From the NCBI RefSeq assembly GCF_964019385.1, contig NC_088647.1:15639794-15703793 (forward strand): a stretch of 64,000 nucleotides of DNA, in the 5' to 3' direction. The position numbers and the translations under genes are program-made. The first letter of the stretch is position 1, and every line of letters starts with the position of its first letter. The notes under the pieces are model-generated. The model made no database searches, had not been told where the DNA came from, and saw only the letters and a program-made list of their open reading frames with translations. Below, piece after piece: positions 9,655 through 62,727 of the stretch. This DNA is from Sycon ciliatum (lineage: Eukaryota > Porifera > Calcarea > Leucosolenida > Sycettidae).

Positions 9655-10596
9655 TTTTACACTCGCTCTCTTTCTTGGCTACATCACAATGCAGAGCTCG
9701 ATGAGTGGCACCCTGAACACAGCTACATGAGCAACACTTGTGAACTTTATGCTCCACCGACGACACTGTATAGTTGACAAAAGCATCCACATGTGACGAG
9801 TTCACTTTCTCTTTTCTGAAGATGTAGTTCCAATCCCACATGGCTCCACCAAGTTCCAATGCAACTGATGTATAGTCTTTGTAAGTATTCCTGTAAACAC
9901 CTGCTCTCAGATTAGCTAGGGATTTATTTCCGTTTGTAACAGTCAGATCTGATGAGTAAAGCCGGTAACTGGAATCAACACCATAATAAGCACCCTCAAG
10001 ACCAATTTTATTGTCGACAATAACTTCCAAAAGGACTCCTTTCCTCTTCAATTTCCTCTTCAAATCTGACCGAGAAATTTGTGTCCCGGGCATAACATCT
10101 CGGTCCTCATCCGAGATCAATAGAACAATTACTGCTATATCTGGACGATCCAGTCTTAGCAGTTGGTCATTGGACCCGGGATCAGTGATGTTCTCCAAAG
10201 CAAACTCAATAGCATTGTAACCATCTTCTACGTGAGCATCGGTTTTTTTCAACAGCTTCTTGCTAGCCTCCTTAAATCCACCAATGTCATATACCAGTGA
10301 ATTTTTATCGTTACGAATGACACTTGGTACTCTCATCTTGTTACCAAAGCTGACAAGAGTATAATGATTGTCTATTCCAGGGTACAGGCCAAACCCATGC
10401 TCTCTAAGAGATGTTTCAAGACTTTCTGAGATCATTTGCAGCCGATCTATGCGTGATTCTGACATGCTTTTCGACTCGTCAAACACAACAATGATATCGG
10501 CAGCTGATCGTCCACATTGAAAGGTGGTGTTGGAGTTGTTTGACATTGCTTGCAACTGCGGCGGAAAATCGGCTGGTAGTGATGCACCACATTTCA
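9655..10596 (-). CDS. vWA-domain exon, module 4 of the CCP-vWA gene
   Basis: A 942-bp exon reads through without stops. It follows a pyrimidine-rich acceptor ending TGTGTGTCCAG and starts in phase 1. It encodes CGASLPADF, an N-glycosylation-rich linker, and a vWA domain with a DESKSMS metal-site motif (DxSxS, about residues 39-43 of the exon). A second acidic motif SDEDRD (about 160-165) and a Cys-rich tail (KCCSCSC) follow. vWA domains bind protein ligands outside the cell through a metal site. The third metal-site element (GGS/T in modules 2 and 3) is not seen here: the loop reads AHVED. The end differs from the other copies, with GCAAGA where they have a GTATGA donor. It may use a GC donor or be broken. 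This is the most divergent of four copies. Confidence 0.78.
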
Positions 10597-10686
10597 CTGG
10601 ACACACAAACAAAGACAAAGGAATACACTGACAATCACACCATAAGCCAGATTTCCTGATGCCGACAATCTTCATCATGAGAAAAT

Positions 10687-11613
10687 TAGGGCTGAAACGA
10701 TTATACCGAATAATCGAGTACTCGTTTGATAACTCTAACGATCGAGCAATCGTTTAGATTACCGATTACGATTATTTTGCGTTTTTTAAATTTTTGTCCA
10801 GAAAGTACTGTAAACCCTCGTTTTGTGAAGTTTGAATCAGTTTCCGCTGGGAGTATGCAGTTGCCAGGGGTATGGTTCATGTTCTGAGGTTAAATTGACT
10901 TCAAAACTGCCATGTTTGGGAGCTACCCTTTCCCTTATGCAGATTTGTTGGTATTATGAAGGCATAGTTTGTGGAAGCAGAGTGATGCTTGCACAGAATG
11001 AGGACACTACGGTAGGTATCGGTTATAGCGTGGGTGTTTGAAAAACGACTTTCTATTCTTATTTCCGATATTTCTTACACACGATACATCAAGTGTGACA
11101 TATCATATGCATGTGCGCAGGGGCAGGAAGATCACTGTACGTGCAACGACGGGTTACGTAGTCGCTTAGTGCTACTGTGCATGCGGCTGGCCATAGTCCC
11201 ATAGGCTTACCATGTGGGCTATCCAACAAGAGTTACATGACCACAACAGTTGAACCTGCGGCACTAGTGCCACTACGTCTACGACGCAACGCGAGTCAGA
11301 TCAGAACTGCATGGGACAGATGTTATTACTACAGGCGATACACTTTGTACTAATCTGGCATGTTTTGCTACACAAAGTCCATTCTTAGGACCGATATATT
11401 TTACTATGCGATAAAATTGCTTGTAAGAATAAAAGTGCACTTGAAAGCCATGTTATGATTATGAAAACAGTTCATTCTTGTAGGCGGTATATTATTTTAC
11501 ACGACCACGCTATAACCGATACGCATTGTATTTGCTAACGATTATAATCGATTACTCGATCGTTAAGGTAAAGAGTAATCGATACGTGAAAATCCACGAT
11601 CGTTTCAGCCCTA
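10687..11613. mobile_element. hAT-type non-autonomous element, 8-bp TSD
   Basis: Terminal inverted repeats TAGGGCTGAAACGAT bound a 927-bp element flanked by the exact 8-bp duplication GAGAAAAT (10679-10686 and 11614-11621). The paralogous intron at 27600 has the uninterrupted sequence GAGGAAAT, an empty site. Eight-base duplications and this TIR style indicate the hAT superfamily. There is no transposase. A second MITE is nested at 11019-11519. Confidence 0.9.
11019..11519. mobile_element. Nested MITE with CGGTTATAGCGTGG ends, TA target
   Basis: Inverted ends TCGGTTATAGCGTGG flanked by TA lie inside the hAT element. A second copy is at 44738-45189. The interior contains GAAAAACGACTT and CGATACATCAAGTGTGAC in both. 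Probably Tc1/mariner-like; no ORF. Confidence 0.68.
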
Positions 11614-11831
11614 GAGAAAATGGCTTTCTTCCCAACTCACATTGTGTTTGTAGGGTCTAGGATTGCAATTGTGAAAGGCTACAGCATCACTTTCTACTTT
11701 TGGAGCTGCTTGGTTTGCTGTTGTCAGCAGATGTTTTAGACACCACTGGCACTCAAAAATTCTAGTATCTGGAACTACAAAAGGTAACCCAACTGACTGA
11801 CCGCTGAATTTCTCGCCATGTTACCTGAAAC

Positions 11832-11960
11832 ATGCAGGCAGGCATAGTGGGATGGTCTAAGACCATGATTGAGAAACACAGGGTACCAGGTTCAATTGAA
11901 ATTGAAGTTCTCCCAATCCTTTCAAAAATTATTATTATGATTATTATTAACTCGTCCTCG
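11832..11960 (+). mobile_element. tRNA-derived SINE head with (ATT)n tail
   Basis: The sequence GGCAGGCATAGTGGGATGG to GGTACCAGGTTCAA matches the SINE at 61681-62011 and holds a pol III B-box (GGTTCAA). It then runs into a different ATT-rich tail. It interrupts the intron sequence that is continuous at 27815-27835. Confidence 0.6.
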
Positions 11961-12114
11961 GTCCTCAAAGGGGTAAGCCTCATCATCTTCAGGGGCGTCA
12001 CCGGACCCCTTCACAGGGGGTGCACAGGAATTTTGCACAGGAAAACACGAAAAAGTTCGCTGATAGCAGGCCCGTTGCACCGACTTTGGAGGTGGGGCGA
12101 CTATGGGGTACGGG

Positions 12115-13392
12115 GCCCTCCCCCGGGAAAAATTCAAAAATTGAAGCCAATTGCAAGCATTTCCGGGCATTTGATGCCATTTCAGTGTAACTACAATGAA
12201 AGACTTTTTGATTCTGCAACAAGCCAAGAAGACGCTACGATCGGGGACAAGAATTCTTCGTTATCCTCCCCCGGGAAAAAATTTCAAAAATTGAATTATT
12301 GCAAGCATTTCCGGGCATTTGGTGCCATTTCAGTGTAACTACAATGAAAGACTTTTTGATTCTGCAACAAGCCAAGAAGACGCTACGATCGGGGAGAAGA
12401 ATTCTTCGTTATCCTCCCCCGGGAAAAAATTTCAAAAATTGAAGGCAATTGCAAGCATTTCCGGGCATTTGGTGCCATTTCAGTGTAACTACAATGAAAG
12501 ACTTTTTGATTCTGCAACAAGCCAAGAAGACGCTACGATCGGGGACAAGAATTCTTCGTTATCCTCCCCCGGGAAAAAATTTCAAAAATTGAAGGCAATT
12601 GCAAGCATAACCGGGCATTTGGTGCCATTTCAGTGTAACTACAATGAAAGACTTTTTGATTCTGCAACAAGCCAAGAAGACACTACGATCGGGGACAAGA
12701 ATTCTTCGTTATCCTCCCCCGGGAAAAAATTTCAAAAATTGAAGGCAATTGCAAGCATTTCCAGGCATTTGGTGCCATTTCAGTGTAACTACAATGAAAG
12801 ACTTTTTGATTCTGCAACAAGCCAAGAAGACGCTACGATCGGGGACAAGAATTCTTCGTTATCCTCCCCCGGGAAAAAATTTCAAAAATTGAAGGCAATT
12901 GCAAGCATTTCCGGGAATTTGGTGCCATTTCAGTGTAACTACAATGAAAGACTTTTTGATTCTGCAACAAGCCAAGAAGACGCTACGATCGGGGACAAGA
13001 ATTCTTCGTTATCCTCCCCCGGGAAAAAATTTCAAAAATTGAAGGCAATTGCAAGCATTTCCGGGCATTTGGTGCCATTTCAGTGTAACTACAATGAAAG
13101 ACTTTTTGATTCTGCAACAAGCCAAGAAGACGCTACGATCGGGGACAAGAATTCTTCGTTATCCTCCCCCGGGAAAAAATTTCAAAAATTGAAGGCAATT
13201 GCAAGCATTTCCGGGCATTTGGTGCCATTTCAGTGTAACTACAATGAAAGACTTTTTGATTCTGCAACAAGCCAAGAAGACGCTACGATCGGGGACAAGA
13301 ATTCTTCGTTATCCTCCCCCGGGAAAAAATTTCAAAAATTGAAGGCAATTGCAAGCATTTTCAGGCATTTGCTGCCATTTCAGTGTAACTAG
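12115..13392 (+). repeat. 150-bp tandem repeat, about 8.5 copies
   Basis: The period is exactly 150 bp: CCTCCCCCGGGAAAAA recurs at 12115, 12265, 12415, 12565, 12715, 12865, 13015, 13165 and 13315. Copies are about 98 percent identical, with the first and last more diverged. Since 150 is a multiple of three and the unit has no stop in one frame, a 357-codon open frame results. That frame lacks any recognisable domain and lies inside a transposable element, so I treat it as satellite rather than gene. Confidence 0.93.
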
Positions 13393-13432
13393 TGTAACTA
13401 GTCTACGAGTCGTACTGGTACTCGTACTGGTC

Positions 13433-13785
13433 ATGTACATGCACTCGCTACATGCACTCGCTACATGCACTCGCTACATGCACTCGCTACATGCACTCGC
13501 TACATGCACTCGCTACATGCACTCGCTACATGCACTCGCTACATGCACTCGCTACTTGCACTCGCTACATGCACTCGCTACATGCACTCGCTACATGCAC
13601 TCGCTACATGCACTCGCTACTTGCACTCGCTACATGCACTCGCTACATGCACTCGCTACTTGCACTCGCTACATGCACTCGCTACATGCACTCGCTACAT
13701 GCACCCGCTACATGCACTCGCTACATGCACTCGCTACATGCACTCGCTACTTGCACTCGCTACATGCACTCACGCGATCGCGGCA
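13433..13785 (+). repeat. 13-bp minisatellite CTACATGCACTCG
   Basis: About 27 copies of CTACATGCACTCG lie in tandem, with sporadic CTACTTGCACTCG variants and one CACCCG unit. Thirteen is not a multiple of three, so all three forward frames give the same repeated peptide read in turn. There are no spacers, so this is not a CRISPR array. Confidence 0.95.
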
Positions 13786-14179
13786 GCACAGTACAACTAG
13801 TTTTAGTGCATGCAGTTTATTAGTCGATTCTACCAGCACTACACTTTTCATAACCAGGAGTTCGCAAGAAAACCAAGGTCGGATTTTTTAGGGGGGTGCA
13901 CGTGCCCCCCGTGCCCATCACGGGTGACGCCCCTGATCTTTCGTTTCAATGCCTGTCCACGTTTAAAGATGTGCTCAGTGCCTATTAGCTCTTTCAAACC
14001 TCATCTTGGACCATTGGAAAACTTGTACTTCCTCCGTATACAAAACAACTTCGTGACTTTTTTTGAAGGCTGCGCACAGCTCTGGAATTGTTCCGTTTGA
14101 CTTGGAATAACACTCGTGGCATTGTCCAACTTGTTTAAAAGTTATATGCAAAGAAAAAAAAGCAACTCAGACGAATGAG

Positions 14180-14610
14180 GTTGAGTTTATTCAGAGTCTT
14201 CGTAGCTCGTGTCATTGTCACCTGACAACAGTGACTCCGCATCGCCAACAGTCGCTGCTTCCGCTCGCAACTCGTTCAGTTTCTCGTCAGGCGCAGTGAC
14301 GATTCGACACTGGACTTTGGCTACGTCCTCTTCATCTCCAGAGCTGTGTGCGAATCTGTGTCGACTATATTCAGTTGTTCCAACCCGCGACCTCCATTAT
14401 GCCGTGAAACGAGTCGCACAAGCACATCCATGCGCTTTGCATTTTCTCGGCAGGATAATCCTTCCAGCATTCTACAACGGCTTCGAGGAGGTCCCTGCAA
14501 TTCCCCTTGGCGACAAAGGAGACATCTGACTGGAGAGAGGCGAAGAAAGCCAGGTCGTCGACACTCCGATCCGCAGTCTGCGCTGGTTGCAAGACGACTG
14601 AAATGTTTCA
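14180..14610 (-). pseudogene. Possible transposase C-terminal fragment
   Basis: The minus strand reads DLAFFASLQSDVSFV, LLEAVVECWKDYPAEKM and MCLCDSFHGIMEVAGWN. This resembles the C-terminal end of DDE transposases of the Tc/pogo type (aspartate-rich start, then W-x-YP and a hydrophobic helix). The match is by pattern memory only and there is a frameshift near 14370. It could also be an unrelated reading. Confidence 0.35.
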
Positions 14611-14731
14611 TCTTGCCGTGCGAGCGGAATGTTCTCACGCTGCGTATGAGGTCGCGCACTGTAAGTACGAGCCTGGCAAACTTCATGGCAACGAGTACAG
14701 CGTGACTCCGTGTTCCGCGAGCTCCACTTTC

Positions 14732-15453
14732 ATGGCCAGGAATCGAGGACATCTGAGAGTTGTAATTTTTGTACTCCTCCGAGGTGTGATTTTTGGCGTG
14801 CTGGGCCAAGCACAAGGAAGCCATCTGCAAAAAAACTGCAGAAAATGGTTGTTGTTTGATCCTTTGGTGTAATCTTTGTTTCTAGTCGAAGCTAGTTGCT
14901 GTTTGGAGCAGAAACGCTGAAATTGACTATTTTCTGCATGTACTCATACATGTACTCATGTACTCAGGCATGCAGTCTCACTCGTATTTTAGCTCTTTTT
15001 CTGGAATGGATGCTGCTCTGCGCCCCTTGGTGAACATTTCCTGCGCTCGTGGAGCAGCTGAAAAGGACCACTGGTATGTCTGGTTCCTGGTTTGAAAGTG
15101 GAGAGTCGACTTTTGTGTCTTGAAAAAGGAGTAGAGAGCGATAAAGGTACGTCTGTGGCTGATTTTTGAGTGCTCATCGTACATTTTTGATCATGATAGA
15201 AATTCTCAGCCCAAAGTCAGACCAAAGTCAGCGCGATGATGGTCGTACAGTTTTCTTGTGGATTTTTTAGTTGTTTCATCTCGTATCTATGTCAGTATCG
15301 TGATGGTGAAGTGGAGAGGGTGATTTTCTTCCTCTGGGCTTCGTTCGGCCGACTTTGCTTCGTCCTCGTTGAAAAGTGATCCCGAAAAAAAGGTCGATTC
15401 GCAAAATTATGTTGATTTTCAATGTACGTGATGACATGCGATTGCTGGCTATG
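14732..15453. mobile_element. TIR element ATGGCCAGCAATCG, copy 1
   Basis: Three near-identical ~0.7-kb blocks (here, 23544-24323 and 51690-52396) share the ends ATGGCCAGCAATCG and CGATTGCTGGCTAT, which are inverted repeats. In the third copy the block splits intron sequence that is continuous in the module 4 copy. No clear TSD. Internal ORFs on both strands are conserved only because the copies are young. Confidence 0.7.
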
Positions 15454-15671
15454 GTCACTGTGTCTGTTTCGGGCAAGTAAGTGTCCTCACACGCATAGCT
15501 TCCGTGGAGAATCTGTACGGGATCAACCCAACTTACCTCGACATGAATGTGGGTTGTCGATTACAGCCTTTGGCGCGGTTTGTTGAGCAGGTTCTTGCTC
15601 AAAATCACCGTTGCAATAAAGTCACGAAGGTTTTGTATACGGAGGAAGTAGTAAGATGTCCTTCTCCAATG

Positions 15672-15740
15672 TGACTGGTAAACTGACATGCATGCTACTG
15701 CTAAACTGAAATGCATGCTAAGGCTAAACTGTAAAACAGG
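15672..15740. repeat. Short run of the 23-bp ACTGACATGCATGCTATTGCTAA minisatellite
   Basis: Two to three degenerate units of the ATGCATGC-containing 23-bp repeat sit immediately before the pogo-like MITE. The same pairing occurs at 28.9, 36.4 and 55.4 kb. Confidence 0.7.
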
Positions 15741-15755
15741 CTAAAACAACTATTA

Positions 15756-15942: not shown

Positions 15943-15962
15943 TACTACACTGTAAGACTAAC

Positions 15963-16068
15963 CTTCACATGTTGGTGGCTCCTTTGACCAGTTGCCATTT
16001 TCCAGACACTCCAACTTATTATTTCCTTGCAGAATATAGCCTTTGTTACATCTGTATGTGTATATCAC
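15963..16068 (-). CDS. CCP second-half exon, module 4
   Basis: This 106-bp minus-strand exon lies between an acceptor ending CACCTGCAG and a donor GTTAGTC. In phase 0-1 it encodes the C-terminal half of a sushi/CCP domain: VIYTYRC, then GYILQG, LEC, NGNWS and PPTCE. That gives three of the four CCP cysteines plus the conserved tryptophan. The fourth (first) cysteine comes from the 74-bp exon at 24952-25025, upstream in transcription. Its last base G joins TG of the next vWA exon to make the valine of CEVKCG. CCP domains are ligand-binding modules of secreted or membrane proteins. Confidence 0.85.
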
Positions 16069-16099
16069 CTGCAGGTGCACAACAATAATCAGATAATAT

Positions 16100-17534: not shown

Positions 17535-19103
17535 CTACAAAACATAGTCAAATCTCGCAGGAGCAGTGCGGGTCCGGCCTGATCGACGCACTAATACTGG
17601 AGTAGCAAAAGGAGGAGGTAGAGTTGATACGGCAACAGGCGGCGACAACGGAGGCGTACTCGGCACAGAGTCATCGGCATCATGTGGCACAACAGGAACA
17701 AAGTCATTAGCTGACAAACTCACTGCGTCGGGGAGATCATTGACAGACGACGGTAAGGTAACTGGGCACGATGAAGTTACTGGCTTCAAGCGATTGAAGT
17801 GAACAGTACGTTCAACTCCATTCAGCAATAATGTGTATGATGTCGAACCATGAACACGCACAATAGTATGTGGACCAGACCAGAAACGATGAAATTTACG
17901 GTGCTCGCCAGCACGGATAACTGGATCATGAAGATATACTTGCTGACCGACAACATAAGGCTCACCATGAACGCGATGGTTATAGAACTGTTCTTGAGAC
18001 GTATGAGCAAGATCAGCATTATGACGGGCTTCAACGTGAATATTCCGCAGAGAAGTGTCGAGACTACGGACATAGGTATGCATATCAGTGGAAGGTGGCG
18101 AAGGTAAATTGAACACAATATCAGTTGGTAACCGGACATCCGCACCATACAGAAGGCGCGCTGGACTGAATCCAGTGTGCAGCACGATGTGACAACAAGA
18201 CGAGAGGGAACGTTGCATCCCACTCCGTACTGGTTGGAGTAATGTGGGCACGCAGCAGACCTAGAAGAGTGAGGTTGACGCGCTCCACCAGACCATCACC
18301 AGAAGGATGATACGGCGTGGTTTGCGTCTTCCGGATACCAAGGAGACGGCAGATATCCCCAAATGGCCGAGATTTGAATTGGGCCCCTTGATCTGAATGA
18401 AGCTGTTCAGGTGCACCGAACCGACTGATCCAGCCATTAACGACAGCTGCAGTGACCGAAGCAGCAGTGATATCGCGCAAAGGGAATGCCTCGACCGCGA
18501 TTACATCGCGTAAAGTAATCTGCCATGACCAGGAGATACTTATGGCCCAGTGACGTTTCAGGCAGAGGACCGACAATGTCCAAGGCAACAATTTCGAACG
18601 GATAACCGGCAATCATTGGCTGAAGTGGTGCACGGTTTGTTGGATTCTTCGCTCGAATCTGTGCACAGGTGTGACAGCATCTAAAAAATTCGGTGATGTC
18701 AGAAGCCATTCCAACCCAGTAGAAACGCAGACGAGCTTGAGACAGGGTTTTCTCCACACCAGGATGGTTAGCAGTAGGAAGAGAATGTACAGCGATCATG
18801 GCCGCTCCTGAAGTGAGCATGGTACGACCAGACGGCGTGACTCACCAACGTGGTCATGATCCGCAAAAGGAGGCAATACATACAAGACAGAATCAAGCAA
18901 AGACAACTGATCAATCTGTGACCAGATAATCTTGACAGTTCGACTAACACCAGAAATGTCATCTTCCGGAGGGCGAACGAACTTGCCATTAGCCGCGTCA
19001 TACAATGACCAGACTGTGGATAGCTCCGGATCCGAGCGTTGAGCATCAACTATAGCAGCAGATGATACATCATCCAGCTCAACGGTGACAGCACTGCTCT
19101 GTA
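17535..19103 (-). pseudogene. Ty3/gypsy pol: integrase region
   Basis: The minus strand encodes, in order, the RNase H-integrase spacer, then the integrase zinc-binding motif HPGVEKTLSQARLRF...CHTCAQIR (HHCC). Next come the catalytic core (IVALDIVGPLP with the first Asp; LHSDQGAQF with the second; ERVNLTLLGLLR with the Glu) and the C-terminal domain ending HFNRLKPV. D, D and E residues are visible, but frameshifts near 18500 and 18215 separate them, so it is not functional. Protease, RT and RNase H are missing because the element is truncated at 19103, where a Penelope-like tail begins. Confidence 0.85.
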
Positions 19104-24951: not shown

Positions 24952-25025
24952 CTCCCTGTGGTACGTTGTGGATGAAAGAGTTCTAACGCCATTTTGGATG
25001 GATGGAAGAGGAGGGCACTGGGGAA
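24952..25025 (-). CDS. CCP first-half exon, module 4
   Basis: A 74-bp minus-strand exon runs from the acceptor TTCCCTTCCCACAG to the donor GTAAGG. Starting in phase 1 and ending in phase 0, it encodes PQCPPLPSIQNG and TLSSTTYHRE. This is the N-terminal half of a sushi/CCP domain, with its first Cys, the LPxxxNG motif and the following beta strand. It splices in frame to 15963-16068. The exon is too short for ORF searches and was found from the four-fold conservation of its splice sites. Confidence 0.83.
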
Positions 25026-26212: not shown

Positions 26213-27151
26213 CTTTACACTCGCTCTCTTTCTTGGCCACATCACAATGCAGAGCTCGATGAGTGGCACCCTGAACACAGCTACATGAGCAACACTTGTG
26301 AACTTTATGCTCCACCGACGACACTGTATAGTTGACAAAAGCATCCACATGTGACGAGTTCACTTTCTCTTCTCTGAAGATGTAGTTCCAATCCCACATG
26401 GCTCCACCAAGTTCCAATGCAACTGATGTATAGTCTTTGTAAGTTCTCTTGTAAACATCTGTTCTCAGATTAGCTAAGGATTTATTTCCGTTTGTAACAG
26501 TCAGATCTGATGAGTAAAGCCGGTAACTGGAATCAACACCATAATAAGCACCCTCAAGACCAATTCTATTGTCGACAATAACTTCCATATGGACTCCGTT
26601 CCTCCTCAATTTCCTCTTCAAATCTGACCGAGAAATATTTGTCCCGGGCATAACATCTCGGTCCTCATCCGAGATCAAAAGAACAATTATTGCTATATCT
26701 GAACGATTCAGTCTTAGCAGTTGCTTATTGGACTGATCAGTGATGTTCTCCAAAGCAAACTCAATAGCATGGTAACCATATTCATTGGAACCTCCAGGTA
26801 TTTTCAACAGCTTGTTGCTAGCCTCCTTAAATCCACCAATGTCATATACCAGTGAATTGTCATTGTTACGAATGACACGTGGTACTCCATCACGGTTACC
26901 AAAGCTGACAAGAGTATAATGATTGTCTATTCCAGGGTACAGGCCAAACCCACGCTCCCTAAGAGATGTTTCAAGACTTTCTGAGATCATTTGCAGCCGA
27001 TCTAAGCGTGAATCTGACATGCTTTTGGACACATCAAACACAACAATGATATCGGCAGCTGATCGTCCACATTGAAAGGTGGTGTTGGAGTTGTTTGACA
27101 GTGCTTGCGACTGCTGCAGAAAATCGGCTGGTAGTGATGCACCACATTTCA
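26213..27151 (-). CDS. vWA-domain exon, module 3 of the CCP-vWA gene
   Basis: A 939-bp uninterrupted exon is bounded by a TGTGTGTCCAG acceptor and a GTATGA donor, phases 1-1. The protein has an Asn/Ser-rich linker (NNSNTT), then a vWA domain: IIVVFDVSKS with the DxSxS motif (residues 39-43), a GGS loop (119-121) at the usual place of the metal-site Thr/Ser, and LLISDEDRD (157-165). A Cys-rich segment VHKCCSCSCVQG and ECK end the exon. The exon continues in frame from the CCP exon at 29141-29246 and into that at 24952-25025. It differs from module 2 at few positions. An upstream start in the adjacent MITE gives a longer open frame, but the acceptor shows that the true exon begins at 27151. Confidence 0.87.
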
Positions 27152-27558: not shown

Positions 27559-27968
27559 CACACCATAAGCCAGATTTCATGATGCCGACAATCATCATCA
27601 TGAGGAAATGGCTGTCTTCCCTCCTCACATTGTGTTAGTAGGGTCTAGCATCTCCATTATGAAAGACTACAGCCGATCACTTTCTACTTTTTGAGCCGCT
27701 TGGTTTGCTGTGGTCAGCAGATGTTTTAGACACCACTGTTACTCATGAATTATAATATCTGGTAAAAAAGGTAACCCGACGGACTGACCGCTGAAATTCT
27801 CGCCATGTTACCCGAAACAAAGATGTTATTCAGTTCGGCCTCATCATCTTTCTTTTCAATGCCTGTCCGTGTTTTACAGATATCTTTATTGAGTGATCAG
27901 TGTTCATTGGCTCCGATTCAAACCCTATCTTGGACCATTGGAAAACTTCAAATTACATGTGCTTCTAC

Positions 27969-28358
27969 AATGTGACTGGTAAACTGACATGCATGCTATT
28001 GCTAAACTGACATGCATGCTATTGGTAAACTGACATGCACGCTATTGCTAAACTGACATGCACGCTATTGCTAAACTGACATGCATGCTATTGCTAAACT
28101 GACATGCATGCTATTGCTAAACTGACATGCATGCTATTGCTGAACTGACATGCATGCTATTGCTAAACTGACATGCATGCTATTGCTAAACTGACATGCA
28201 TGCTATTGCTAAACTGACATGCATGCTATTGCTAAACTGACATGCATGCTATTGCTAAACTGACATGCATGCTATTGCTAAACTGACATGCATGCTATTG
28301 CTAAACTGACATGCATGCTATTGCTAAACTGACATGCATGCTATTGCTAAACTGACAT
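27969..28358. repeat. 23-bp minisatellite, ~17 copies
   Basis: Units of ACTGACATGCATGCTATTGCTAA run in tandem and continue at 28795-28905 after an inserted LTR. The core ATGCATGC is palindromic. Smaller arrays of the same unit lie at 15672, 33150, 36216, 53865 and 55331, at the same place in each module intron. Confidence 0.94.
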
Positions 28359-28794
28359 TGTAATCGAACTATGACTTTCTCTTGTATGACTCTGTCTTGT
28401 GTAGTTGACATTACTTCTTACCTCTTGTTGCCTGTCATGTGATTCATGGGCGTGATTCATCCTGTGGTTGCGGCTTTCTTGTACGCATGCGTGTATGCTG
28501 TTATAATAGTAGTGTCATGTTTCATGTATGCTGTGCAGCTGTTTGGGCTTGCTGTGGTACGCATGCATGCTCCAGTTCCTTTCTGATACACGCTGCTCTT
28601 AGCTCTTTTTACGGTAGTTCTGGTGTGTTCCGATGGCGATGGTTTTGTGAACAAAGTAATTCTCTCTCTGGTTGTACTGTCGTATGTATTAGCACAAACA
28701 ATAACCTTCCAGTTAGTATAATTACTTGTCCAGACCTGTGTGGTGTTTTGGCCGTGGTATGCCTGAGACCGGTTGTGGGGGTAATTTTCTAACA
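28359..28794. mobile_element. Putative solo LTR in the minisatellite
   Basis: A 436-bp segment with TG (TGTAATCGAAC) and CA (TTTTCTAACA) ends interrupts the 23-bp array and is flanked by ACAT on both sides, as expected for LTR integration. No internal region or second LTR remains. The open frames inside are not convincing. Confidence 0.5.
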
Positions 28795-28933
28795 ACATGC
28801 ATGCTATTGCTAAACTGACATGCATGCTATTGCTAAACTGACATGCATGCTAGTGCTAAACTGACATGCATGCTATTGCTAAACTGACATGCATGCTAAG
28901 GCTAAACTGTAAAACAGGCTAAAACAACTATTA

Positions 28934-29120
28934 CAGTCAACTTGGCTAATAACGACTGCGGATATAACAACAATTCGCGAATAACGACAGAACGTCCATG
29001 CCCAGGGCAAAGTCCCATCCAACTGTAATACGTTATAGAGACTTCGGGTATAACGACACTTCGCGAATCACGACACTTTTCTGATGCCCCGCCGAGTGTC
29101 GTTATACGCAAAGTTGACTC
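28934..29120. mobile_element. Pogo/Tigger-like MITE, copy 2
   Basis: Complete copy of the element at 15756-15942 with the same ends and interior, flanked by TA. Confidence 0.75.
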
Positions 29121-29140: not shown

Positions 29141-29246
29141 CTTCACATGTTGGTGGCTCCTTTGACCAGTTGCCATGTTCCAGACACTCCAACTTATTAT
29201 TTCCTTGCAGAATATAGCCTTTGTTACATCTGTATGTGTATATGAC
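29141..29246 (-). CDS. CCP second-half exon, module 3
   Basis: Same 106-bp exon type as 15963-16068, with acceptor GACCTTCAG and donor GTTAGTC. It encodes VIYTYRC, GYILQG, LEC, GNWSK and PPTCE. It receives the first-half exon at 30084-30157 and joins 26213-27151. The short distance (about 0.8 kb) to its first half makes this the most compact CCP pair in the gene. Confidence 0.85.
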
Positions 29247-30083: not shown

Positions 30084-30157
30084 CTCCCTTTGGTACGATG
30101 TGGATGAAAGAGTTCTAACGCCATTTTGGATGGATGGAAGAGGAGGGCACTGGGGAA
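30084..30157 (-). CDS. CCP first-half exon, module 3
   Basis: 74-bp exon with acceptor CTTCCCACAG and donor GTAAGG, encoding PQCPPLPSIQNG and TLSSTSYQRE. It differs from the module 4 copy by two residues near the end (TY to SY, H to Q). Phase 1 in, phase 0 out. Confidence 0.84.
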
Positions 30158-31393: not shown

Positions 31394-32329
31394 CTTTACA
31401 CTCGCTCTCTTTCTTGGCCACATCACAATGCAGAGCTCGATGAGTGGCACCCTGAACACAGCTACATGAGCAACACTTGTGAACTTTATGCTCCACCGAC
31501 GACACTGTATAGTTGACAAAAGCATCCACATGTGACGAGTTCACTTTCTCTTCTCTGAAGATGTAGTTCCAATCCCACATGGCTCCACCAAGTTCCAATG
31601 CAACTGATGTATAGTCTTTGTAAGTTCTCTTGTAAACATCTGTTCTCAGATTAGCTAAGGATTTATTTCCGTTTGTAACAGTCAGATCTGATGAGTAAAG
31701 CCGGTAACTGGAATCAACACCATAAGCACCCTCAAGACCAATTCTATTGTCGACAATAACTTCCATATGGACTCCGTTCCTCCTCAATTTCCTCTTCAAA
31801 TTTGACCGAGAAATATCTGTCCCGGGCATAACATCTCGGTCCTCATCCGAGATCAATAGAACAATTATTGCTATATCTGAACGATTCAGTCTTAGCAGTT
31901 GCTTATTGGACTGATCAGTGATGTGCTCCAAAGCAAACTCAATAGCATGGTAACCATATTCATTGGAACCTCCAGGTATTTTCAACAGCTTCTTGCTAGC
32001 CTCCTTAAATCCACCAATGTCATATACCAGTGAATTGTTATTGTTACGAATGACACGTGGTACTCCATCACGGTTACCAAAGCTGACAAGAGTATAATGA
32101 TTGTCTATTCCAGGGTACAGGCCAAACCCACGCTCCCTAAGAGATGTTTCAAGACTTTTTGAGATCATTTGCAGCCGATCTAAGCGTGAATCTGACATGC
32201 TTTTGGACACATCAAACACAACAATGATATCGGCAGCTGATCGTCCACATTGAAAGGTGGTGTTGGAGTTGTTTGACAGTGCTTGCGACTGCTGCAGAAA
32301 ATCGGCTGGTAGTGATGCACCACATTTCA
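31394..32329 (-). CDS. vWA-domain exon, module 2 of the CCP-vWA gene
   Basis: A 936-bp exon, one codon shorter than module 3 because a Tyr of GAYYGV is deleted. It has the same acceptor (TGTGTGTCCAG) and donor (GTATGA), phases 1-1. It has DVSKS, GGS and SDEDRD metal-site elements and the Cys-rich tail. It is joined upstream to 40300-40405 and downstream to 30084-30157. Near identity with module 3, including flanking introns and the shared MITE, shows a recent tandem duplication. Confidence 0.87.
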
Positions 32330-40299: not shown

Positions 40300-40405
40300 C
40301 TTCACATGTTGGTGGCTCCTTTGACCAGTTGCCATTTTCCAGACACTCCAACTTATTATTTCCTTGCAGAATATAGCCTTTGTTACATCTGTATGTGTAG
40401 ATCAC
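40300..40405 (-). CDS. CCP second-half exon, module 2
   Basis: 106-bp exon with acceptor CACCTGCAG and donor GTTAGTC, encoding VIYTYRC, GYILQG, LEC, GNWSK and PPTCE as in the other modules. It receives 47184-47257 and joins 31394-32329 across an 8-kb intron swollen by transposons. The right half of a pogo-like MITE (40187-40283) lies just beyond the donor. Confidence 0.85.
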
Positions 40406-47183: not shown

Positions 47184-47257
47184 CTCCCTGTGGTACTGTG
47201 TGGATGAAAGAGTTCTAAAGCCATTTCGGATGGATGGAGGAAGAGGGCACTGGAGAC
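47184..47257 (-). CDS. CCP first-half exon, module 2
   Basis: 74-bp exon with acceptor CTTCCCACAG and donor GTAAGG, encoding LQCPLPPSIRNG and TLSSTQYHRE. It is the most changed of the three closely related copies (VP to GL, LP to PP, QN to RN, GV to GF). It joins 40300-40405 downstream and follows the module 1 vWA exon. Confidence 0.83.
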
Positions 47258-50702: not shown

Positions 50703-51641
50703 CTTTACACTCGCTCTCTTTCTTGGCCACATCACAATGCAGAGCTCGATGAGTGGCACCCTGAACACAGCTACATGAGCAACACTTGTGAACTTTATGC
50801 TCCACCGACGACACTGTATAGTTGACAAAAGCATCCACATGTGACGAGTTCACATTCTCTTCTCTGAAGATGTAGTTCCAATCCCACATGGCTCCACCAA
50901 GTTCCAATGCAACTGATGTATAGTCTTTGTAAGTTCTCTTGTAAACATCTGCTCTCAGATTAGCTAAGGATTTATTTCCGTTTGTAACAGTCAGATCTGA
51001 TGAGTAAAGCCGGTAACTGGAATCAACACCATAATAAGCACCCTCAAGACCAATTCTATTGTCGACTATAACTTCCATATGGACTCCGTTCCTCCTCAAT
51101 TTCCTCTTCAAATCTGACCGAGAAATATTTGTCCCGGGCATAACATCTCGGTCCTCATCCGAGATCAAAAGAACAATTATTGCTATATCTGAACGATTCA
51201 GTCTTAGCAGTTGCTTATTGGACTGATCAGTGATGTTCTCCAAAGCAAACTCAATAGCATGGTAACCATCTTCTTTGTTTCCTTCCTTTCTTGTCAACAG
51301 CTGCTCGCTAGCCTCCTTAAATCCACCAATGTCATATACCAGTGAATTGTTATTGTTACGAATGACACGTGGTACTCCATCACGGTTACCAAAGCTGACA
51401 AGAGTATAATGATTGTCTATTCCAGGGTACAGGCCAAACCCACGCTCCCTAAGAGATGTTTCAAGACTTTCTGAGATCATTTGCAGCCGATCTATGCGTG
51501 AGTCTACCATGCTTTCCGACACATCAAACACAACAATGATATCGGCAGCTGATCGTCCACATTGAAAGGTGGTGTTGGAGTTGTTTGACAGTGCTTGCGA
51601 CTGCTGCAGAAAATCGGCTGGTAGTGATGCACCACATTTCG
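50703..51641 (-). CDS. vWA-domain exon, module 1 of the CCP-vWA gene
   Basis: 939-bp exon with acceptor TGTGTGTCCAG and donor GTATGA, phases 1-1. The metal-site motif is DVSESMV (DxSxS) and SDEDRD is kept. The loop that is PGGSNEY in modules 2 and 3 reads KEGNKED, so the GGS/T residue is not obvious. The tail KCCSCSC is unchanged. It joins 55676-55781 upstream (giving EAKCG at the junction) and 47184-47257 downstream. A TIR element (51690-52396) is inserted only ~50 bp before the acceptor. Confidence 0.86.
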
Positions 51642-55675: not shown

Positions 55676-55781
55676 CTTCACATGTTGGTGGCTCCTTTGA
55701 CCAGTTGCCATTTTCCAGACACTCCAACTTATTATTTCCTTGCAGAATATAGCCTTTGTTACATCTGTATGTGTATATCAC
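55676..55781 (-). CDS. CCP second-half exon, module 1
   Basis: 106-bp exon with acceptor CACCTGCAG and donor GTTAGTC, encoding VIYTYRC, GYILQG, LEC, GNWSK and PPTCE. It receives the divergent first-half exon 62654-62727 and splices to 50703-51641 over a 4-kb intron holding the LTR and piggyBac-like insertions. Confidence 0.85.
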
Positions 55782-56021
55782 CTGCAGGTCCACAACAATA
55801 ATCAGATAATATAGCCGAGCTAGATCAAATCTAGGCCAAAATACTGCAACACGATGTTTTCCACTTCAACTCGAGTTTCAAACGAAGATCAATCTCCAGG
55901 CAACAGATCAAACCAAGAATATTCATTCTTTAATAAACGGCATGTAGCAGCTGGGTGATAACTGCGCTCCACCACTAGTGTGCTGTCAACTGCAACGTGT
56001 CAATGTACAGCTTCAGGAGTT

Positions 56022-57117
56022 TTTTATTATCTTTATTCACACGATGGTCGTAACCAGTAAGAGAGAGACAGTACAATGTGTTATCAATCAGAGTGGGTGC
56101 AATAAACCGGGAGAAACAGTGGCTAGTGGCAGCCGTGGTTTGGGTGCTTCATTTAAGTAAAGACGAAGAAGGAAGTATATCCATTGCGAAGGCAGGTAGG
56201 CGATAGAGCTTGATTAAAATACACCTAGGCTGGGCTACAGCAGGGGTTGGAATATGTGCAAATTGATGATACTATGATCGGGGTAACTTCTCTTTTGAGT
56301 GCATTTATTTCTCGGAGGGAGTAACAGTGTGGTGGCAGGTGGTTGTACTGAGTGCATGCGGAGTACAAGGGTGAACGTTGAAGGCGGGTGGAGTGGGTGG
56401 TGGGGAGGGCAACGGCTCGATGACGCCTCAATTCTCGGCTTGGTGGCTCGGTGATGTAGCCTGAGGTCGCAAGCTGGATGTGTGGCGGGGATCGTTTGAC
56501 AGCGATGGTGTGTGCAAAGAGTAGCTGCTTGAGTTTCCGGCGGGATGAGAGGGTTGGCCAAGTGACGTGGTGGAGTAATGAACTGTGGTGGCAAGGACTG
56601 AAGAGGGAGAGTCGGAGGCAAAGGTTTGCTGACCGCCGTTGGAGACGTTCGAGGGTATCTTGTTGCTGAACATTCATAGCTGACATAGCCAGAGGACCAT
56701 ATCTGTGCGATAACGGGGCATATATACGTGTTGTACAGTGCTGACAGCGCTGTGGGTGAAAGACGTCCACGAATCCGTCTCAAGAGGTGGAGAGTGCGCG
56801 CAACTTTGCTCTCGATGTGCTGGATGTGGGCATTCCACTTCAGGTCGGCCTGAATGATGATACCCAGGTGTCGCTGGCTCTGGACTCTGTTCAGTGTTTT
56901 GTCTCTCAACGTTATTGTCAGGGGGAAGGCACCGCACAGTGTCATCACGACCGTCTTCGTTTCGTTGACGGTCAGGTGCCAGGTGTCGAGCCACGTAGCG
57001 ACTTTAGTCACACTGGACTGGAGCGCTCGCTCCGCTGCCCCTGCTGAGTGGTCGCTAGCGACTAAGGCGGTGTCGTCGGCGAAGAGGATGCTTCGTGTGG
57101 CTTGGAAGTTGCAAGCT
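56022..57117 (-). mobile_element. 5'-truncated LINE with RT domain and poly-A tail
   Basis: The minus strand has ILFADDTALVAS (intact FADD), WHLTVNETKTVVMTL, RHLGIIIQADLKWNAHI and LERLQRRSANLCLRL, across two frameshifts. It ends with a 3' UTR and GAATAAAGATAATAAAAAA at 56022. It interrupts the intron block that is continuous at 16290-16340, with loss of about 20 target bases (GTGCTACATATACCAGG absent). It includes a minus-strand pseudogene, not a host gene. Confidence 0.85.
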
Positions 57118-57359
57118 GATACTAACTAGTAGTAAGCCCTTTTCCACCTCAAGGCCGTCTAGTATGTACTTGTAGGTGATTAGGTCTTAGGATGTGTGAA
57201 CACCGCTTGCACACTGTATCATCCCCTCCTCTTTCTCATCTACATACATGTAGCTGGTAGTATACTACTGGCGTCTGCACTGTACACGATTCTTGAACAG
57301 AAGTCTCAAATCATCTTTCTAAACGTATTCTATGATGGACAACTTTTATACTATGGTGA

Positions 57360-57540
57360 AAAAGGTGAAGGACAAAATGTTACGAGTTATGACTAACTGT
57401 CCACCAACGTAACCAGATCTTATACAGTCAGCGAGTGCGACAAAATGTTACGACTAACTGTCCACCAACGTAACCAGATCTTATACAGTCAGCGAGTGCG
57501 ACAAAAATGGCACACAACTGGCAAGGAGTACTCTAACTTC
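57360..57540. repeat. Fold-back family fragments, tandem
   Basis: GTAACCAGATCTTATACAGTCAGCGAGTGCGACAAAA-type sequence occurs twice in tandem (57412-57446, 57471-57506). Related to the 4-6 kb cluster. Confidence 0.65.
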
Positions 57541-57719
57541 AGACATTTTCGGTGCTCAATATTTTCGGTATGAGGGCAACAGGCTAGGTTAGGTGAACAG
57601 AAATTTTAGGTACAGAGAAGCAGTTTCCTATTGGATTATGTGTGTTGGTGTTTGTTCGGTGTATTGAAATTTTAGGTATGAAAAAGACGCACCGAAAGTA
57701 CCGAAAATAAAAGTACACC

Positions 57720-58170
57720 GAAAATTTGTGAAATTACAGTGCTGAGACAGTCGGCGACCTGACATCTAGCTCCAACACTTCCCCAAGGCGCAAACCAACA
57801 ACCTTCCAACTTGGAAGGCTCAGGTTCGGAAAGGTCCAAGGCAAGGGGGGGGGGGAGGAAACCGCAACGAAGAAGAGCACGAGCTACGCATCACGGCAAC
57901 AAAGAATGCCGAAAGTTACCGGATGATGACGAAACTAGTGAGACTATTGGACATACCGGCCTTTCTCTGGCACATCTTTCATCATCTACATGCATTATCC
58001 CAGTTCTGCACGCTTACAACCAAGCGCAGAGCTCTGCCCTAGACTATGTCTTTTTCTCTTTCTTTGCTCACCTATTTCTCATACCTTCTTTTACAGATTT
58101 GGTATTATGGAAAGTTTGGAAACCCCCTCGATAGGCGAAAAGATTTGGGGAATCCTTAACAGCCACAAAT
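57720..58170. repeat. Further fold-back fragment and unassigned sequence
   Basis: The CTTCCAACTTGGAAG core (57802-57817) with GCAACAAAGAATGCCGAAAG identifies the same family as 4300-4600. A G run at 57845 interrupts it. Sequence after 57960 is unassigned. Confidence 0.55.
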
Positions 58171-59568
58171 AATCGTCTTGAAAATAGCCAATTTACAAGC
58201 GCGGGCAAAACAGCCAGCTACGTCCTCAATTGGCAAGAACTATACACCGGCAGATAGTAGAACACCTCTTCTAGCGCTGAGAATATGTCCCCCATCTTCC
58301 TTTTGGGGTTTTCTTGAAATAAGCCTTTTTGAATTTTTCCACTCGACCATGCTGAAATACGGCCAAAGTCATACCTGCGCAGGAAAGCTTGCCCCTCCGC
58401 GACGTCTCCTCAGCAATTTCTACTCCAACAATACTCCCAACGCCGCAGAACAAAGTGTATTGTTGACTCTGACAAGGAAAAGCAGCGGTGATCACTTGTC
58501 ACTCCAAACGACAAGCTTCTCCTTGCGCCACCAATATTTTTTTGTGCGACTGTTGATGCAAAAGTGACTGAAGGCCTGCGCCACCAATATTTTTTTGTGC
58601 GACTGTTGATGCAAAAGTGACTGAAGGCCTGAGCGCAATTCTTGAATTTTACTACAAGAGGAACGGTGAAATCACGTGCCTTGTGACGCAAGAATGCCAA
58701 GTCGTGTGGATCACGGCTTCCCAGTAAAAAGGCAACGCCTGTTGGGACTCCCCTAGTAAAATAATAAAATCTACTACTACAACTACTACTACGGCTCACG
58801 AGATTTCAGAGTCACCTTCGTCACGTGCGCTTGTTACTCGCCTTGAACGCCCGTTGGTCTGGAAGTGATCACACTCGTGTTGTTACTGCGCTCAAGAACA
58901 CACTGACCGTGTTGTAGGCCTACGAACCGGGACTTTCCCTAACCATGTAGGTCGAAGACGAGTGAAATGATGATGAAATCACGTTCTTTATGACGTAAGA
59001 AATCTCTCATGCAGTTCACGCGACAAGTGCGTGCAGCCAGTGCTGCTGGCGTGCCATGCCAGTCAACACAAAGCGACCGAGCTAGCAGCTTTTGTCGAGC
59101 ATCGACATGAAAACAAGGGACTTTTACTGTTGGACTATGTTCGAGATTGCAGGAGGTAAGTATGAAAGACGAATAACTCTACATGCTGTACGGGGCATAT
59201 TTCAACGGCTTGCTGCCATTGCAACACTCCTAGGACAGTTTGTGGGGGTTCTCAGCAGATCAAGCAGGAAATGCAGCTCATCTTACCTCAGCCATCACGG
59301 TCTGTTCCGAGTAACGTTCCAGACGATGGCCACAGGTCGTGATCCAGGAAGCGTCATCCTACGTCACAGAGCACGCGATCTCACCTTGCATCTTGCAATA
59401 AAATTCAAAAACTGCGCTCAGACCTTCAGTCACTTTTGCGTCAACAGTAGCACAAATAATTATTGGTGGCGCAAGGAGAAGCTTGTCGTTTGGAGTGACA
59501 AGAGATCACCGCTGCTTTTCCTTGTCAGAGTCAACAATACATGAAAATTGGCTATTTTCAAGACGATC
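58171..59568. repeat. 1.4-kb inverted-repeat element
   Basis: The ends ATCGTCTTGAAAATAGCCA and TGGCTATTTTCAAGACGAT are inverted. Inner arms 58453-58690 and 59350-59540 also match in inverted orientation. The left arm has a 54-bp direct duplication (GCGCCACCAATATTTTTTTG twice, at 58524 and 58579). A LINE 3' tail is nested at 58700-58797. No transposase. Confidence 0.7.
58700..58797 (+). mobile_element. LINE 3' tail, plus orientation
   Basis: CCCAGTAAAAAGGCAACGCC and CTGTTGGGACTCCC followed by an (ACT)n tail is the 3' UTR of the family at 4732-4966 and 5775-6790, here almost fully 5'-truncated. Confidence 0.65.
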
Positions 59569-60099
59569 GTTTGTTTTATTAATATTTTATTGAAAGGATC
59601 TCCCAGAGGCGATGGCCTGTCGAGGGGATCTCCTAATGCAAATCATGCAATAGAAATAAACAGTGAGGAAAACTACACGTGTTACAGTATATGCTACATA
59701 ATAAGCAATAAACACAGGGCTGGGTTGTTCAAAATAAAACAATTCGTTTGGCGTCAGGGGGTGATGGACCTCGTTTTCTGGGATCCTGGCGTGGCTCAGT
59801 AAGTAAGCCGTACTACTCCAGGAACTCTTCTAAGGTGAGGCAATGTTGGCTTGATGGAGTTTTGTTCGTAGCTTGTTCGTATACACTGTGGCGTGACTCG
59901 TTTCTAGACCCATAAATAATGTGATATCTCAGCCATTTTTGAGGGGTGTGCAAGTTTCAAGGTTCCCTTCAGAAACTTTTTCAAGGACTTTGCACAACCG
60001 ATCTACACCACAAAGGGAACATACCTGCAAATTTTGAGCGAAATCGGAGAGATCCACTTACACACATACTTTGGTATTCTCAGACATTCTCTCTTAAAA

Positions 60100-60953
60100 A
60101 GGGGAAGTTAAGCCTAAAATCAAATTTTCACCAGTTGTAGTCTTCGGGGTGCTGAGTCGAATGGTCTTGGTTCGAGGAAGCTGAGATGCTCCCTTCCTCC
60201 TTTATTCCCAATCGAACTCGCGCACTTCCATCGAAACTGGGTGACTGCGCCCTACTAGATGGGGATTTGTATGCAAAATGTCACTAAAAGCGCCATTTCG
60301 TTCTTATAAAAGCACGGATGACTGCGATTGGCCCATATGTTGTAGTCTTTTGGACGCCGAGTCGACTGGTTTTGGTCCGAAAAGGCTGCGATGCAGCGTT
60401 CCTCCTTTATTCCCAATCGAACATGGTTGAACAAGCGGTCATGTGCTCCTGCGTACACCAGTCACCTGGTCACCATGCCTGCAAGGTACAACTTACAGCC
60501 TGTTCGACCTTTTTGGGTGCAGTCCTGTCACTCGAGTTGAACTCGAGTTGAACCTTGGTGTGAAATGTGTCGCCTGCTGGCGCGGTGACCAGGTGACTTG
60601 GGCACGCAGGAGCACGTGACCGCTTGTTCAACCATGTTCGATTGGGAATAAAGGAAGAACGCTGCATCGCAGCATTCTCGGACCAAAACCAGTCGACTCA
60701 GCGTCCAAAAGACTACAACATATGGGCCAATCGCGGTCCTCTGGGCTTTTATAAGAACGAAATGGCGCTTTTAGTGACATTTTGCACACAAATTCCCATC
60801 TAGTAGGGCGCAGTTACCCAGTTTCGGTGGAAGTGCGCCAGTTCGATTGGGAATAAAGGAAGAAGGGAGCGTCTCAGCTTCCTCGGACCAAGACCATTCG
60901 ACTCAGCACCCCGAAGACTACAACTGGTGAAAATTTGAGGCTTAACCTCCCCT
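60100..60953. repeat. Giant palindrome, ~370-bp arms
   Basis: Positions 60100-60474 and 60584-60953 are inverted copies at >90 percent identity around a ~110-bp centre with a CTCGAGTTGAA doublet. Landmarks are AGGGGAAGTTAAGCC, CCCATCTAGTAGGGCG, GGAATAAAGGA and their complements. Both arms include GAACGAAATGGCGC. No ORF of note. Probably a non-autonomous fold-back element; TSD not seen. Confidence 0.85.
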
Positions 60954-60979
60954 ATAAACAATAAAAATACAATTACTAC

Positions 60980-61235
60980 AACTCAACGACGCAAAGCAAC
61001 AGACCACCCAACTTACTTGGGAGGCTCAAGTTTATGTAATAAACATAGAAAGGGGAAGCTAAGCAAAGACGAATTGTGACAAACCGAAACGTCAACATCC
61101 TACTGAACTCCACCATCATGTAGAATGGACTAGATATGTACAATAACAAGTCAGTTTTGTGCCATTTTGTCGCACTCGCTGACTGTATAAGATCTGGTTA
61201 CGTTTGTGGACAGTTAGTCATAACTCGTAACATAA
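60980..61235. repeat. Fold-back family fragment
   Basis: Contains CACCCAACTTACTTGGGAGGC (hairpin core with a short insertion) and the GACTGTATAAGATCTGGTTACG end of the 4-6 kb family. Confidence 0.65.
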
Positions 61236-61670
61236 AATCTATGATCACTTCGTGCATAAAATTTCCGAAATAGGATGTTTGTTATCCAATCGCTTAGAAA
61301 TTTATATGAGAAAATCGCGGGAGTTGCCTGAGCCATACTCCGAAGAAATTTCTCAGAAAGCCAAAAACAAATTTGAATTATTCGAAAAAGTCTAGAAGTC
61401 TATACTTTTTAAACGCGCTATAGCTAGGAGCTATATCTGCGCCACTATCAATGAAGGTCATGAAATTCCAATGCATGCATAAAAGCCAGCCCGAATGTAT
61501 CTCGTTCCCACAATAACTTCGAATCGCAAGAGGAACATGATTCTTTTTTCGTCCAAATCACTATCTCCTTTGCTGGACTGTCGTCATCAAACACACCACA
61601 GTGCACTCACTCATCACCGATTCACTGCTCCAATCTCTAGTAGAATCAATTTCTTTAAATCCGGGTAATT
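61236..61670. other. Unassigned spacer
   Basis: No gene or repeat recognised between the fold-back fragment and the SINE. Confidence 0.4.
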
Positions 61671-61680
61671 ATGTTCTTTA

Positions 61681-62011
61681 GGCAGGCAGGCATAGTGTGA
61701 TGGTCTAAGATCATGATTGAGAAACAGAGGGTACCAGGTTCAAGTCCTGCTTGGAAGCCGAAGGATTTTTTCCAGCCGTGCTGCGACCCACAGTTAATTG
61801 GGAACTCGTGGCCTGGCACGAGGAAAACATGGATGCAGTGAATGGGATTTTCGGTCTTTGACCACTTGCTGGCGAGCTGATCTACTCACCTCCCACCGCT
61901 TTAGGAACTGCACCTGCGCCTTGATCCTTGAAGGGTGGTGGTGTTCCTACGGATGCGGAAAGCCCGGCTTCCAGCCGAGTCTCACGCGAACCGTGAATTT
62001 TTTGTTTTTTA
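61681..62011 (+). mobile_element. Full-length tRNA-derived SINE, 10-bp TSD
   Basis: The unit starts GGCAGGCAGGCATAGTGTG and has a near A-box TAGTGTGATGG and an exact B-box GGTTCAAGTCC (61737-61747). A ~260-bp body follows and a T-rich end. ATGTTCTTTA occurs on both sides (61671-61680, 62012-62021). A second head is at 11832. Transcription would be by RNA polymerase III. Confidence 0.75.
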
Positions 62012-62021
62012 ATGTTCTTTA

Positions 62022-62417
62022 GGCGAGACCAAAAAAATTGAGATTCCCGGGCCCTCCCGCACCAAAATCGAGCAAAAGCCAATTTTTTTTATTTTTTACT
62101 TGAACACTGAGTTAATTTGCATGTACAGTACTGCTTGTGCGAGTAGATCTGTGACGTGGAGGCACACAAACCCGGGCTTGTACGACTCCCTGATGTACAG
62201 ATCAGGGCCATCGTTGGCCGAAATACAGAAAAATTCAATGGGTAAAATACGTGCCTGTTTTCTTTAAAAAATGAATAAAAATTACCGGAAAATACTGTAA
62301 AAAAAGTTCAGCGTGGCACACACGTACATACATACATAGGAAAAATAAAAAATTGCCCGCCCGCACCAATTTCACATGGGTCCTTCCCGGGAATCTCGAT
62401 TTGATTTTGGTCTCGCC
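62022..62417. mobile_element. PIF/Harbinger-like MITE, TTA TSD
   Basis: The ends GGCGAGACCAAAA and TTTTGGTCTCGCC, extending as ATTGAGATTCCCGGG, are inverted repeats flanked by TTA on both sides. The three-base TWA duplication is diagnostic of PIF/Harbinger. It inserted in the right-hand TSD of the SINE. 396 bp, no ORF. Confidence 0.85.
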
Positions 62418-62653
62418 TTATTGAAAAGAAAAAGGACCAAGGAACTACAAGTTACGCTATAATTATATTCTTTCTTCATTCTTTTCTTTCTCTTGCCAGT
62501 GGCTTTTGCCATTTGACGGTGGTTGAGATAATATAAAATAAAAAACCTTGCGTGCGCGGTGAATAGGAGACGTTGTACAGGTTATACCCACAGCGTGAGC
62601 ACAATCACTGGTAATGTGGTCTCATAAAATGCAACCAAACCTGCATGTCTTAC

Positions 62654-62727
62654 CTTCCTTTGGTACTGATCGGCTGAAAGTGTTTTCTTGCCATTTTGAA
62701 TGGATGGAAGAGTAGGGCAGTCATCAA
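62654..62727 (-). CDS. CCP first-half exon, module 1 (divergent)
   Basis: 74-bp exon with acceptor CCTTCCCACAG and donor GTAAGA, phase 1-0, encoding DDCPTLPSIQNG and TLSADQYQRK. It has the same length, phases and splice context as the three later copies but is clearly more diverged. It is therefore probably the ancestral 5' member outside the recent duplications. The preceding exon must end in phase 1; none was confidently seen up to 64000. Confidence 0.8.

Follow-up and report, generated by a model that had tools for sequence, protein, structure and literature searches.

A single Sycon ciliatum gene with four tandem CCP-vWA modules, a candidate adhesion or recognition molecule

We analysed a stretch of 64,000 nucleotides from the calcareous sponge Sycon ciliatum (NC_088647.1, positions 15,639,794 to 15,703,793; hereafter the window), in which twelve exons on the minus strand encode four modules in a row, each made of a CCP (sushi) and a vWA domain. 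Together with two exons lying beyond the window edge they give 14 coding exons, which span 60.8 kb and encode 1524 amino acids. We favour the reading that this is a single 14-exon gene of a four-module protein, most likely a soluble multivalent adhesion or recognition molecule, and we estimate the probability of this reading at roughly 0.6. The model was identical in 1524/1524 residues to the NCBI 'uncharacterized protein LOC135817798' (P0004), therefore we regard the locus as one gene of 60.8 kb. LOC135817798 was already in NCBI by automatic annotation, with no function in its name.

An earlier note on the window had proposed one gene of four modules, with a strict order of CCP first half (exon a), CCP second half (exon b) and vWA exon, repeated four times with matching splice phases. 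Both the single gene and the order were borne out, the latter by splice sites and a single open frame. The 74-bp exons a of modules 1 to 4 were located at 62654-62727, 47184-47257, 30084-30157 and 24952-25025, and the 106-bp exons b at 55676-55781, 40300-40405, 29141-29246 and 15963-16068. The vWA exons (936-942 bp at the coordinates of the earlier note) were found at 50703-51641, 31394-32329, 26213-27151 and 9644-10596. An acceptor AG was present directly upstream of 12/12 exons, and a GT downstream of 11, with GC after the twelfth. The joined sequence had one frame with 0 stops over 1491 codons, and the remaining two frames contained 70 and 114 stops. Cysteine 1 of each CCP is encoded in the 74-bp exon and cysteines 2-4 with the Trp in the 106-bp exon, so the CCP is completed by splicing, as had been supposed. 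The short exons had also been called likely to escape searches for open reading frames; the NCBI annotation did include both.

The fourth vWA exon is terminal. It has a GC at the position of the GT donor of the other three (G|GTATGA in each), and it ends with ECKSKI followed by TGA (9646-9644), the same C terminus as in P0004. The earlier note had ended this exon at 9655. Two more 5' exons lie outside the window. These are exon 1, which encodes the signal peptide, and exon 2, situated 6.4 and 1.5 kb past the edge, respectively (70441-70400 and 65552-65507 on the scale of the window, minus strand). They were traced via the neighbouring P0001 gene, as close copies of its signal-peptide and second exons. 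They read MEHYKLLSVLLIIQ and VLLLAVDGASINNEM, and their donors and phases suit the exon at 62727-62654. The join of exon 2 with this exon gives Ile (A|TT) and then DDCPTL, as in P0004, and P0002, a EukProt protein named in the style of Sycon transcripts, starts alike (MIDDCPTL). Over the 203.5 kb covered, the signal-peptide exon and exon 2 were each detected in two close copies, namely those of the array and those of the P0001 gene, with no further close copy among the modules (a strongly diverged copy could escape). Since the modules are tandem duplicates, their four agreeing sets of splice sites are not four independent pieces of evidence. More independent support is provided by the identity with the NCBI protein, the single signal-peptide exon for the array and the approximately 104 substitutions among modules that introduced no stop.

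The protein consists of a signal peptide, a short linker and the four CCP-vWA modules. Its N terminus is hydrophobic (hydropathy peak of 2.29 at residue 7), and no 19-residue window from residue 26 onward exceeded a hydropathy of 0.99. Judged from hydropathy, the protein is therefore likelier to be secreted than membrane-bound; of the two locations that the earlier note had offered for a recognition protein, secreted or surface, the former appears more plausible. The 34 NxS/T sites and 48 cysteines fit an extracellular location. Against Pfam Sushi (PF00084) the spliced product matched in four stretches (157.1 bits, cut-off 20.7; residues 33-88 of P0004 for module 1), with the four cysteines and the Trp present. 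The whole protein also exceeded the cut-offs for vWA (PF00092 and PF13519; 57.2 and 61.2 bits, cut-offs 23.8 and 27), as did its relatives P0017 and P0003, narrowly, for PF00092. A profile of the family matched the vWA protein PTMP1 at 3.3e-6, and integrin matches were weaker (0.026 and above). The NCBIfam search with the window vWA gave no match, and the PDB sequence search with a single vWA gave a match at chance level only.

The vWA domains are of a distinctive subtype marked by DxSxS, E-D-G (E-Y-G in modules 2 and 3), DEDRD and a Cys-rich tail, with one CC pair per vWA. DxSxS was present in 4/4 modules (DVSES, DVSKS, DVSKS and DESKS), as was the loop 3 Asp (ISDEDRD). In the canonical metal ion-dependent adhesion site, Thr is usual in loop 2. 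Judging by spacing, we describe the array domains as a vWA subtype in which Glu-Asp would occupy this place. Ligand binding in many vWA domains takes place through a metal on one face, and CCPs serve as spacers held by disulfides. Each vWA of the array may accordingly offer one metal-dependent binding face, with the CCP as a disulfide-locked spacer; four copies would give avidity, and their diverged loops a range of ligands.

The modules are 93.3-98.3% identical in DNA, and their duplication is young. CCP exon b was 99-100% identical between modules, and CCP exon a was identical down to 76%. Variable columns (64/374) were clustered, with a maximum of 11 within one 20-column stretch, which was reached by 20/2000 shuffles. 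They concentrate in the first CCP exon (13 in columns 1-25) and around E-D-G (11 in columns 176-200). In a simple simulation, the neutral probability of so many substitutions without a stop was 0.0106, and all gaps between modules were of 3 bp. A pseudogene array is unlikely, as the four modules contain no stop or frame-breaking gap. The frame looks maintained, with residues free to change in certain places, which fits diversifying selection and also relaxed constraint. The ratio of nonsynonymous to synonymous rates (dN/dS) in the vWA exon was 1.15-1.86 for the six module pairs and 1.51 for the P0001-gene vWA exon against its inverted copy. This copy is located to the left of the window (C5:15581168-15582124, plus strand) and has 91.5% amino-acid identity to the exon. 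Nine other Sycon paralog pairs gave dN/dS of 0.13-0.94, and three deeper comparisons gave 0.53, 0.22 and one undefined value.

Relatives of the vWA exon are numerous in Sycon ciliatum. With this exon as query, the 538-Mb, 313-contig assembly yielded 67 matches at E 0.001 or better: 4 in the window, 2 strong ones within 70 kb on C5, the contig of the window (62-63% identity), and 61 others, including 3 weaker ones on C5. Among 14 loci sampled from these 61 with short flanks, a stop was found within 21 codons of the match in 10, one of which (C12:17687750) also has a possible donor, AAAG|GTAGGA. The remaining four form the C1:72.15-72.23 Mb set and had no stop in the 30 codons shown. These four vWA exons of the family lie on one strand, 23-31 kb apart (C1:72146538-72226466, minus strand), and are probably another tandem gene set.

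Three protein searches, which rely on shared short words and in two cases scored the best 7989 and the best 7995 candidates, resulted in 24 proteins, 16 of them containing the vWA subtype by profile. Thirteen are from Sycon (7 NCBI-named, 6 scpid-named) and three (P0003, P0016, P0024) from the source 'lgn'. In a table of PMC6526912, scpid names denote Sycon sequences; our reading is that these derive from transcripts. Of the thirteen, P0004 is the array gene and P0002 a fragment resembling part of its product. In the other 11 the vWA is C-terminal or nearly so, 3 to 60 residues from the end; ten have one vWA and P0017 has two, the first divergent. A CCP precedes the vWA in 8/11 (P0005, P0007, P0008, P0019-P0023), thus the CCP-vWA unit is a common end-unit in this species. 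These eight, among them P0005 (fibropellin-1-like) and P0007 (LOC135824928), share with the array the subtype near the C terminus and the preceding CCP or CCPs, but they have a single vWA, with EGF repeats in P0005 and P0008, further CCPs in some and a weak, below-cut-off lectin match in P0007. P0018 has leucine-rich repeats before the vWA, and P0001 and P0017 have neither these nor a CCP. The EukProt protein P0001 (scpid100038), product of the next gene on C5, was 100% identical over 319 residues to C5:15604369-15605325. Its signal-peptide exon (91.8% DNA identity), second exon (95.7%) and vWA are like those of the array, and it ends with SNI where the array ends with SKI; unlike the array, it has an N-terminal region with no Pfam match, no CCP and a single vWA. 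Among the proteins found, the fourfold array occurred only in P0004. Its absence from other animals is not proven by this, because the searches reach short-word relatives only and scored the best candidates.

The array probably grew from such an end-unit: a C-terminal CCP-vWA unit, common in Sycon proteins, would have been duplicated in tandem within the gene. Modules 2 and 3 have 3.7 kb in common at 96.9% in one block, from the vWA to the CCP exon a of the next module, and the other inter-module matches are mostly islands around exons. At the position of the stop in the single-copy relatives, a donor is present in each of the three internal vWA exons. The sequence that follows the exon is GGTATGACCTGATC in these three copies and AGCAA(G/C)ATTTGATC in module 4 and the two C5 single-copy relatives. 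The TGA of the module 4 end is found in the same place after the internal vWA exons, where it is now intronic. When the bases after the exon were compared without gaps, module 1 and the module 4 end agreed in 18/30 positions (0/5000 shuffles) and in 20/40 (0.0016), and module 1 and P0001 agreed in 16/30 (0.001). These counts belong to a set of 12, in which module 1 was compared with three references over four lengths each; the shuffle fractions were 0 to 0.01, and the set was made after a gapped alignment. We read this, with moderate confidence, as a former stop region that turned into a donor and left its TGA within the intron; the internal vWA exons would in this way have gained, at their ends next to the stop, a donor in the phase matching the next CCP exon.

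Several observations weigh against the favoured reading or parts of it. The gapped local alignment of 60 flanking bases of modules 1 and 4 fell short of significance (its score was reached by a fraction of 0.608 of 1000 shuffles), and because it failed and the ungapped count succeeded only afterwards, our confidence in the origin of the donor is moderate. The joins from vWA to CCP exon a are given by the DNA and the NCBI model alone; P0002 shows only the joins from exon 2 through CCP exons a and b to the vWA. P0002 is also a mosaic, with CCP exon a like module 1, exon b like module 3, the start of the vWA like modules 2/3 and its later part like module 4. It is either a collapsed assembly or another allele, which leaves the copy number or allelic state of other animals uncertain. 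A single vWA used as query stayed below the Pfam cut-offs (18.3 and 19.8 bits), and P0001 had no Pfam match at all. In loop 2, the distance to the following A-I places the Glu of E-D-G or E-Y-G where Thr would be; E-D-G is retained in modules 1 and 4, and E-Y-G is present in modules 2 and 3. Because of the Glu in place of Thr and the lost Asp in modules 2 and 3, metal binding is not certain. Finally, dN/dS above 1 was not significant in any pair (p 0.054-0.54), so we make no firm claim of positive selection.

As to the role, an extracellular-matrix or spicule-matrix protein, in which the repeats would form a structural or mineral-associated polymer without recognition of self or foreign, is a possible but rather unlikely alternative, and it differs from the favoured reading in role only. 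vWA domains are known in biomineral proteins (two in a Vaceletia skeletal proteome, PMC4633127), S. ciliatum builds calcite spicules (PMC12419799), and a soluble repeat protein suits a matrix. On the other hand, no Willebrand, VWA, sushi or CCP term occurred in the main text of a paper on the S. ciliatum spicule matrix; absence from the spicule proteome is not established by this, because the term search covered the main text and not the supplements (PMC12419799). The matrix calcarins described in that text have 10-23 di-cysteines (PMC12419799), versus the one CC pair per vWA here. A complement-type protein of immunity or allorecognition, with binding faces that diversify, would be a sharper version of the favoured reading; we also judge it to be on the unlikely side. 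It would agree with the pairing of CCP and vWA known from complement factor B/C2 and with dN/dS above 1 in 7/7 pairs of the C5 group, which are not independent, versus values below 1 in the nine other pairs. Moreover, some sushi and vWA genes of the demosponge A. aerophoba shift expression, up or down, after microbial patterns (PMC6208332). However, there is no protease domain, the number and order of CCPs are unlike factor B, no single dN/dS test reaches significance, and the ratio comes close to 1 in two of the nine other pairs (0.83 and 0.94). The most far-reaching version is quite doubtful: a terminal exon made internal by a donor at its stop codon would have led to a four-module recognition array, with CCP first halves and metal-site loops diverging under selection and a module number that may differ from one individual to another, for use in allorecognition or in binding microbes.

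Two further alternatives concern the gene itself. Modules 2 and 3 could be two haplotypes that the assembly placed side by side, in which case the true gene would have three modules. Positions 33264-29552 and 28088-24414 are the two halves of the 96.9% match, the two vWA exons are 7 substitutions and one 3-bp gap apart, and P0002 mixes modules. We nevertheless find this improbable, as the matching block keeps the register of a 5.2-kb unit inside the array and modules 1 and 4 are clearly distinct; even if true, it would leave the kind of protein unchanged. That annotation fused four separate tandem CCP-vWA genes is highly improbable. The genome does have single-copy CCP-vWA genes and the fourfold row of the subtype on C1, and each vWA exon, if read through, soon reaches a stop. 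But a single close signal-peptide exon and a single close exon 2 serve the array, a donor of the correct phase follows each internal vWA exon whereas the last ends in a stop, and the NCBI model is identical. We rejected separate genes on the single signal-peptide exon and these donors.

We compared the array protein with known proteins that combine the two domains. Complement factor B/C2, like the array protein, has CCP and vWA in one secreted protein, with three CCPs, one vWA and a serine protease domain. Membership was ruled out, since no protease is among the 17 Pfam families listed for P0004. SVEP1/polydom also has vWA and sushi domains, together with EGF and pentraxin domains, neither of which is among these 17 families, and the array protein was not assigned to it. 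Literature searches found no paper naming LOC135817798, odSycCili1 or scpid100039, and searches on Sycon sushi/complement, calcareous-sponge Willebrand and sushi, sponge factor B and sponge allorecognition found nothing on this gene. The aggregation factors of demosponges have no described counterpart in calcareous sponges that we know of. In the latter class, a multivalent CCP-vWA protein that changes fast makes a concrete candidate for a role in adhesion, in the matrix or in recognition, and the gene suggests a stepwise route from an end-of-gene unit to a domain repeat.

The gene also points to a vWA subtype common to bacteria and Sycon ciliatum. Two peptide patterns, run against prokaryote genomes, revealed 76 loci (L037-L112), and the family profile matched 76/76 of them. 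These proteins share the motif set DESGSM - EDG - TDEDRD with the Sycon modules, but the identity is only 23-36%. The D, E, S and second S of D-E-S-x-S were present in 71/71, 70/71, 70/71 and 71/71 loci, and the E, D and G of E-D-G in 75/75 each. DEDRD was found in 76/76, at least partly because it was included in a search pattern. The subtype with constant E-D-G and DEDRD occurs in genomes named after several bacterial phyla.

Other features were noted in the window. An AATAAA on the minus strand at 9376-9381 resembles a polyadenylation signal by consensus match only. Three long open frames on the minus strand (2312-3268, 56235-57125 and 17535-18260) look by eye like retrotransposon remnants, reverse transcriptase-like twice and the end of a long terminal repeat polyprotein once, and such remnants may explain part of the long introns. 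On the plus strand, a 150-bp tandem repeat extends over 12000-13497, with one frame open for 365 residues (12295-13392), and is followed by a 13-bp minisatellite. Among the matches listed, a 23-bp minisatellite occurs within 27876-29013, with further occurrences near 33.1 and 36.1 kb.

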